A stretch of 64,000 nt of DNA from Anaerolineae bacterium (GTDB taxonomy: Bacteria > Chloroflexota > Anaerolineae > Aggregatilineales > Phototrophicaceae): assembly GCA_020849765.1 (NCBI GenBank), contig JADLAY010000069.1:62001-126000 (forward strand), written 5' to 3'. How positions within the stretch are numbered: the first letter of the stretch is position 1; the number at the start of each line of letters is the position of its first letter. The translations under genes and the position numbers were made by a program. The notes under the pieces were generated by a model, which saw only the letters and a program-made list of their open reading frames with translations, did no database searches and had not been told where the DNA came from. Below are positions 59,941 to 61,027 of the stretch, piece after piece.

Positions 59941-60549
59941 TCATTCGGCCCGTTCTTGCTCGGCCAGCACGCGCTCGATCACCTGGCGGAAGACGTCGAG
60001 CGGCTGCGCGCCGGAGACGAGATAGCGCTGCGCCAGGATCGTCGCGGGCACCCCCTGCAGCCCGATCTGATAGGCAAACATGATGTCCTCGTCGACTTGC
60101 TGTGCGTACTGCGGATCGGAAAAGATCGTATCGAGATCGGGCGTCACCAGCCCGACGGCTGCCAGCGCCCCGGCCAGCACGTCCAACTGGGAGATGTCTT
60201 TGCCGTCCATCCAGTAGGCGCGCTCGACCACGCGGTGATAGGCGCGGCCTTTACCGTGCGCCAGGGCGTACTTTTCCAGGATGAGCGCCGGTCGCGAATC
60301 GATACCGAACGGCCCGGAATTAACCTCGACGCCATAATCTGTCTGTGCCCGCTGCTTGAAGATGACGCGCCCGCGCTCGATCTGCGCTTTGTACTCTGGC
60401 GGAACCGGCGGTGAGCCTGCCGGGCGCAGCTCATACGAGCGCCAATGCAACTCCAGGTCGTAGCTTCGCTCTAGCTCCTCCAAACTGAAGGAGACGAGAA
60501 AGCACCATGGTCAGACGAAATCCGACCAGACATCGAGCCGCAGGGGCAT
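59941..60549 (-). CDS. DsbA/FrnE family oxidoreductase, probable selenoprotein (in-frame UGA for Sec13)
   Basis: A 202-residue thioredoxin-fold protein if the UGA at 60511-60513 is read as selenocysteine. The frame starts MPLRLDVWSDFV, then UGA, then PWC: exactly the CPWC active site of FrnE-type DsbA proteins with its first Cys replaced. After it the family sequence continues without a break (LEELERSYDLELHWRSYELR, then the GVPATILA cis-Pro loop). The ATG has GGAGGAGG upstream and shares a base with the upstream stop (TGATG). A SECIS-like hairpin follows the UGA. A caller that stops at UGA would begin at TTG 60483 and lose the active site. A true nonsense mutation is the alternative. Confidence 0.85.
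60475..60493 (-). promoter_or_regulatory. Bacterial SECIS-like hairpin within the FrnE-like gene
   Basis: On the minus strand CTCCTTC and GGAGGAG pair over 7 bp (one U-G pair) around the loop AGTTT. The loop begins 24 bases after the UGA, inside the usual 16-37 range, and has G at its second position, as bacterial SECIS elements do. An outer CTC/GAG pair extends it. The element lies in the coding frame. Confidence 0.7.
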
Positions 60550-60968
60550 CACCCCTCCTCCAACTGGCCGCGGACACGCGTTGGTGTTACGCGAATAGCG
60601 AGCGAGAACATGGCGTCGAAGCTCTCCGGCGTCATGTCAATGGCCGGGATGCTCTCCGCATATTTGTTCATGTATGCCGCCTGTTTGGTCGCTGGCAGCG
60701 CGCCGGGGTCGAGCACGGCATCGCCCATGATGACGAGGAATTCTTCGGCATCATCACGCAGGACAATGTTCAGGGCGACCTTTGGATTGGCCCTGATGTT
60801 GCGGATCTTTTGCGCCTGGGGCTGGCTGTAGATCAGGAATTTGCCATCTTCAAAGACAAACCACACGGGCGTCGGCTGAGGTTGGCCATCCGCACGCACG
60901 GTTGTGAACCACATGTATTCGGCCTCGGCGATGACAGCAGCATATTTCGCATCAATCGAGACACTCAT
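60549..60968 (-). CDS. PPOX-type (pyridoxamine 5'-phosphate oxidase-like) flavin/F420-binding protein
   Basis: A 139-residue split-barrel protein. The start MSVSIDAKYAAV has AGGAG 8 bases upstream. Family signs are the strand pair YMWFTTVRADGQPQPTPVWF, DGKFLIYSQPQAQKIRNIRANPKVALNI and the late strand VRVTPTRVR. Short members of this type bind FMN or F420 and are often annotated as TIGR03667-like enzymes. The stop overlaps the FrnE-like start (TGATG), so the two are translationally coupled. That suggests linked redox roles. Confidence 0.85.
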   Translation of the reverse strand: MSVSIDAKYAAVIAEAEYMWFTTVRADGQPQPTPVWFVFEDGKFLIYSQPQAQKIRNIRANPKVALNIVLRDDAEEFLVIMGDAVLDPGALPATKQAAYMNKYAESIPAIDMTPESFDAMFSLAIRVTPTRVRGQLEEG

Positions 60969-60999
60969 GCAAGTTGCTCCTGAAGTAAGCAGAAATAAG

Positions 61000-61027
61000 A
61001 AGGGGTATGGCACAGGCCATACCCCTT
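61000..61027 (-). terminator. Intrinsic terminator after the THI5-like binding protein gene
   Basis: A perfect 12-bp stem (61000-61011 with 61016-61027) with loop ACAG is followed on the minus strand by TTCTTATTTCTG. It lies 29 bases after the binding-protein stop and ends the importer operon. Confidence 0.8.

Follow-up and report, generated by a model that had tools for sequence, protein, structure and literature searches.

A predicted FrnE/DsbA-type selenoprotein with a UPWC active site in an Anaerolineae bacterium, and its selenocysteine and cysteine orthologues across Chloroflexota

The locus and its reading frame

The window analyzed here is a stretch of 64,000 nucleotides from the draft genome of an Anaerolineae bacterium (contig JADLAY010000069.1). 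Its minus strand carries a short oxidoreductase gene, interrupted by one in-frame TGA, directly behind a gene for a PPOX-class protein. The features discussed below are as follows:

60549–61013, minus strand: upstream gene for a PPOX-class F420-dependent oxidoreductase (TIGR03667, 140.8 bits against a cut-off of 125.3; PF01243)
60552–60561, minus strand: ribosome-binding site GGAGGAGGGG, directly ahead of the start ATG, identified from the sequence
59941–60549, minus strand: predicted gene for a Sec-containing FrnE/DsbA-like oxidoreductase, 202 residues plus a TGA stop, translated with TGA as U
60511–60513, minus strand: in-frame TGA at codon 13, the inferred selenocysteine of a UPWC active site, from Cys/TGA codon comparison
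60475–60493, minus strand: SECIS-like mRNA hairpin, 24 nt downstream of the UGA, with a 7-bp stem and the loop AGUUU, whose second base is G

From 60549 to 59941 the minus strand forms a single reading frame, whose sole break is the TGA at codon 13. The strong ribosome-binding site and the start overlapping an upstream stop, both claimed in a preliminary description of this DNA, are present: GGAGGAGGGG occupies 60561-60552, and the ATG (60549-60547) shares one base with the PPOX stop TGA (60551-60549), forming the overlap TGATG. Read through, the frame yields MPLRLDVWSDFV-U-PWCFLV... and ends at the terminal TGA 59943-59941. PF01323 matches residues 5-191 of the read-through protein with 98.1 bits, in agreement with the earlier claim that family sequence continues in frame on either side of the UGA. 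Its best PDB sequence matches are 5cp1 and 5cnw (E 3.6e-19), entries named FrnE protein, which we take to be the protein of D. radiodurans. The protein thus combines the features of the FrnE subfamily (COG2761), namely a DsbA-like thioredoxin domain, a CxxC-type site and FrnE as its nearest relative of known structure.

Gene calling with table 11 places the start of this frame at TTG 60483, as had been anticipated together with the loss of the catalytic site; no model in NCBIfam release 20.0 scores this protein above its cut-off, so that annotation relying on NCBIfam probably truncates the gene and loses the active site. The TTG opens the longest table-11 open reading frame in this phase and would give a 180-aa protein devoid of the catalytic motif, but the codons ahead of the TGA are conserved at the protein level and vary mostly at third positions. 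Across 28 Sec loci, the entropies of the ten codons preceding the TGA are 0.51, 0.47 and 1.32 for the first, second and third codon positions, and an alignment of 24 homologues shows no variation at S9, D10, C13, P14 or C16. This conservation led us to reject the downstream start, which is exceedingly improbable.

The Rcas_1661 family of thioredoxin-like (seleno)lipoproteins (NF041057), likewise a thioredoxin-fold selenoprotein family, was considered as an identity for the protein and rejected as another family, since the match of 21.1 bits falls far short of the cut-off, 190. The Rcas of this name presumably denotes a Chloroflexota species. A 2026 review lists the family as DsbG-like (PMC13188914).

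Coupling to the PPOX-type flavin protein gene had been put forward as a feature of interest, a view that did not hold up: the arrangement was seen at 2 of 50 homologous loci (the window's genome, G000, and G013) in a tblastn search of some 1.5 kb of flanking sequence, or less where a contig ended sooner, and the tie is local. A terminator-like 12-bp hairpin at 61000-61027 spans the listed PPOX start, GTG 61013; since it covers this codon, the GTG is doubtful and the PPOX start is probably ATG 60968.

Predicted selenocysteine and cysteine at codon 13

A homologue search of 300 related genomes returned 50 loci in 49 genomes. Aligned at residue 13, where the preliminary description had proposed looking for Cys or UGA, these carry TGA at 34 loci, spread over many families, and TGC/TGT at 16, with no other codon. 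Codons were read directly at this site, as a count of in-frame stops is misleading for one genome (G063), where a TGA is reported and codon 13 is TGC. A phylum-wide search matched 108 of 400 genomes, and 29 of its loci were fetched and read, giving 22 TGA and 7 TGC/TGT; one of the 29 (L165) repeats an earlier locus. A pattern scan of contigs had Cys fixed at the site, so that its 80 Cys out of 80 arise by design and are uninformative on Sec frequency, and 12 pattern matches in viral contigs included no relative.

These counts bear directly on the possibility that the TGA arose by an error in sequencing, or recently by nonsense mutation of a Cys gene. TGA differs from TGC/TGT by one base, and the assembly to which the window belongs is a draft (88 contigs, 6.35 Mb, 95.6% complete). 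Yet TGA likewise occupies codon 13 at 34 of the 50 loci, from many families, and at 22 of the 29 further ones, and the hairpin described below covaries in the Sec loci. Recurrence of the TGA at 34 of 50 loci excludes a sequencing error; the homologues refute both versions of this explanation, whose probability is practically nil.

The genus to which the window belongs has Sec forms as well as Cys forms. Of two other genomes in this genus, one (G010) has a 600-base stretch identical to Chloroflexi bacterium OLB15 and the other (G007) has one identical to an Anaerolineae MAG, which places the window in Chloroflexota and probably in the class Anaerolineae. Mapping onto the tree gives 7 switches of state between Sec and Cys (bootstrap range 6-8), 3 of which are forced by well-supported branches.

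The downstream hairpin and the sel genes

The hairpin was described earlier as a 7-bp stem with G at position 2 of an AGTTT loop that begins 24 bases past the UGA, and the sequence agrees: 60493-60487 pairs with 60481-60475 around the loop at 60486-60482. By itself the hairpin is weak evidence, and as a stand-alone argument it was rejected, since 2728 of the 40004 window positions tested (6.8%) offer an unbroken stem of at least 7 pairs and a G at loop position 1 or 2. It is set beyond chance by covariation, by its loss in Cys orthologues and by the conserved TGA itself. Over the 28 Sec loci compared, 165 of the 196 cells of the 7-bp stem are paired (84.2%), both-side changes occur at all 7 stem pairs, and the covariation score was reached by none of 500 shuffles; shifting the partner by 1-3 columns lowers pairing to 41-54%. 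The weakest pair, third from the base, is paired in 11 of these 28 loci. The 12 Cys orthologues have 35 of 84 cells paired (41.7%), about the shuffled mean, and give no clear covariation signal; among five measures, the number of cells altered on both sides alone stayed high (a value reached by 16 of 500 shuffles). The hairpin has decayed in these orthologues. The serine codon of the loop is AGT in 28/28 Sec loci, 3/12 Cys loci and 7/197 serines elsewhere in Sec genes, and third-position entropy is 0.91 within the hairpin against 1.18 before and 1.65 after it. Excluded from these counts are L066-L069, four Cys loci that encode canonical FrnE, and L058, L059, L063-L065 and L070, six Sec loci from family f34 with a hairpin of different shape. 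The f34 Sec forms L058, L059 and L063-L065 carry the hairpin GGCC-AGGGTGT-GGTC, and a further Sec form (L163) has a different hairpin with a GGTCT loop.

Published limits for bacterial SECIS elements are a loop of 3-9 nt, a stem of 4-16 bp, G in the first two loop positions, a distance of 16-37 nt from the UGA and an MFE <= -7.5 (PMC13188914). The window gene lies within them, with a loop of 3 or 5 nt, a stem of 8 or 7 bp, a UGA-to-loop spacing of 25 or 24 nt and -12.4 kcal/mol. Once two duplicate loci (L070, L165) are set aside, 41/54 loci with Sec fall within the limits, as do 3/23 with Cys and 55/336 other positions inside the genes; on this strict reading, 13 of the 54 Sec loci lie outside them.

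The window's genome encodes selB (349 bits, above cut-off), selA (544 bits), a tRNA-Sec with anticodon TCA (74.4 bits) and a selD that itself contains an in-frame TGA (368 bits); all four genes, including the selC tRNA, are therefore present, and the objection that selB or selC might be missing falls away. The selD gene (L017, G000:C55:75413-76348) has its TGA in SCAG-U-AAKLG, followed by a possible hairpin, and this TGA suggests that SelD is probably a selenoprotein too.

With selB presence scored at E < 1e-70 as a stand-in for the cut-off, selB, tRNA-Sec and selA were each found in 30 of 33 Sec-form genomes; each of the 33 has one or more of them, 32 have two or more and 25 have all three. 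None of the three was found in the 12 genomes with a close Cys orthologue (0/12), and Sec is exchanged with Cys in these genomes where sel genes were not found. Four other genomes, with canonical Cys FrnE, divide into two with selB, tRNA-Sec and selA and two with none. The link between sel genes and form has a Fisher p of 3.5e-11 (33 Sec, 12 Cys genomes), a test that ignores ancestry; well-supported branches supply 3 independent pairs (sign test p 0.25), which leaves an independence of the link from ancestry unsupported. It is also one-directional, as genomes that carry selA may still have the Cys form: all 28 genomes examined from the phylum set have selA, and 7 of them have the Cys form. Those seven Cys forms are L156-L160 and L162 (genus g197) and L172 (G551).

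A further alternative is that the UGA is read as another residue, either Trp under an altered code or some other amino acid through unspecific readthrough. The Sec reading does rest on sequence rather than on protein, which gives this alternative some room; against it, 15 of the 50 loci, the window gene among them, also end with a TGA stop codon, all non-TGA forms carry Cys, the residue that Sec replaces, and the genome holds a complete sel gene set. On these three grounds a code change was rejected, and reading of the UGA as any residue other than Sec is very improbable.

The window gene is thus almost certainly a gene for an FrnE/DsbA-type selenoprotein, in which UGA 13 is read as Sec by means of SelB, Sec-tRNA(Sec) and the downstream hairpin. 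The basis of this reading is the intact family frame around a conserved UGA, the complete sel set, the SECIS covariation and the replacement by Cys in genomes in which no sel genes were found. The central claim of the preliminary description, an overlooked FrnE/DsbA-like selenoprotein with a UPWC site, is borne out by TGA conservation, sel genes and covariation, and that interpretation is supported as a whole.

Known relatives, probable mechanism and significance

DsbA-like selenoproteins were already said to be known, and the literature agrees. A family of nine sequences with a UxxC motif, assigned to COG2761, was described from the Sargasso Sea in 2005 (PMC1088965); GOS data from 2008 gave 63 sequences of DsbA 1 (pfam01323, UxxC; PMC2398784), and the 2026 review includes a 'DsbA-like protein form 1' (PF01323, UxxC; PMC13188914). 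Four DsbA-like selenoproteins, and three Chloroflexi selenoproteins from three families, appear in PMC1794560. The suggestion that an FrnE-type selenoprotein is new fails on this record: D. radiodurans frnE is placed in COG2761 (PMC1978522), the group whose UxxC forms date from 2005. The window gene shares with the 2005, 2008 and 2026 proteins the Pfam domain, the UxxC motif and a predicted in-frame SECIS. Its likeness to the 2005 family, which has COG2761 in common with FrnE, is one of Pfam, COG and UxxC motif only, and the present set is from Chloroflexota. DsbA, FrnE and Chloroflexi are all absent from the main text of PMC12013277, and no paper on a Chloroflexota FrnE selenoprotein was found in the open-licence literature searched. 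Most likely, the window gene is a real selenoprotein of the already reported FrnE-type (COG2761) kind.

With D. radiodurans FrnE (DR_0659) the protein shares the DsbA-family thioredoxin fold, a CPWC-type site and a sequence match over the whole length. The D. radiodurans protein has Cys at the active site and a C-terminal CxxxxC, proposed to regenerate that site (PMC8945050), whereas the window protein has Sec and retains only U13 and C16. The C-terminal CxxxxC, absent from the window protein, is described as a feature of many FrnE members but not all, and is not required for FrnE, because S. roseofulvus FrnE also lacks it (PMC8945050). A second, canonical FrnE with CPWC, a C-terminal CxxxxC (CTDDSC) and no TGA is encoded elsewhere in the window's genome (L180, G000:C1:2777-3406).

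In the proposed mechanism, SelB would bind the hairpin 24 nt downstream and deliver Sec-tRNA(Sec) to UGA 13, inserting selenium into what would be a short (202 aa), probably cytoplasmic, FrnE-type selenol/thiol-disulfide oxidoreductase of the DsbA family. Sec13 would be the attacking and Cys16 the resolving residue of a UPWC site that, judging from alignment, is expected to face the cis-proline loop (V167-P168). No signal-like stretch was seen by eye at the N terminus, and FrnE proteins are predicted to be cytoplasmic (PMC8945050); for these reasons a cytoplasmic reductase appears considerably likelier than a secreted oxidase. Counting Cys in the sequence of the window protein shows none beyond the UPWC site, so that reduction by thioredoxin or another donor would be needed.

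With this finding, a selenoprotein family known from marine metagenomes gains a well-documented member, together with Sec/Cys orthologues from across the phylum. The short FrnE-like selenoprotein might be one of the genes that tie Chloroflexota to selenium, its conversion to Cys permitting loss of the whole Sec trait within one genus; this idea, suggested by the repeated Sec/Cys changes and by sel genes going unfound in the close-Cys genomes of the window's family, is speculative and on balance rather unlikely. A genus that contains both forms, and genomes both with and without sel genes, is well suited to testing what benefit selenium brings to an FrnE-type enzyme.
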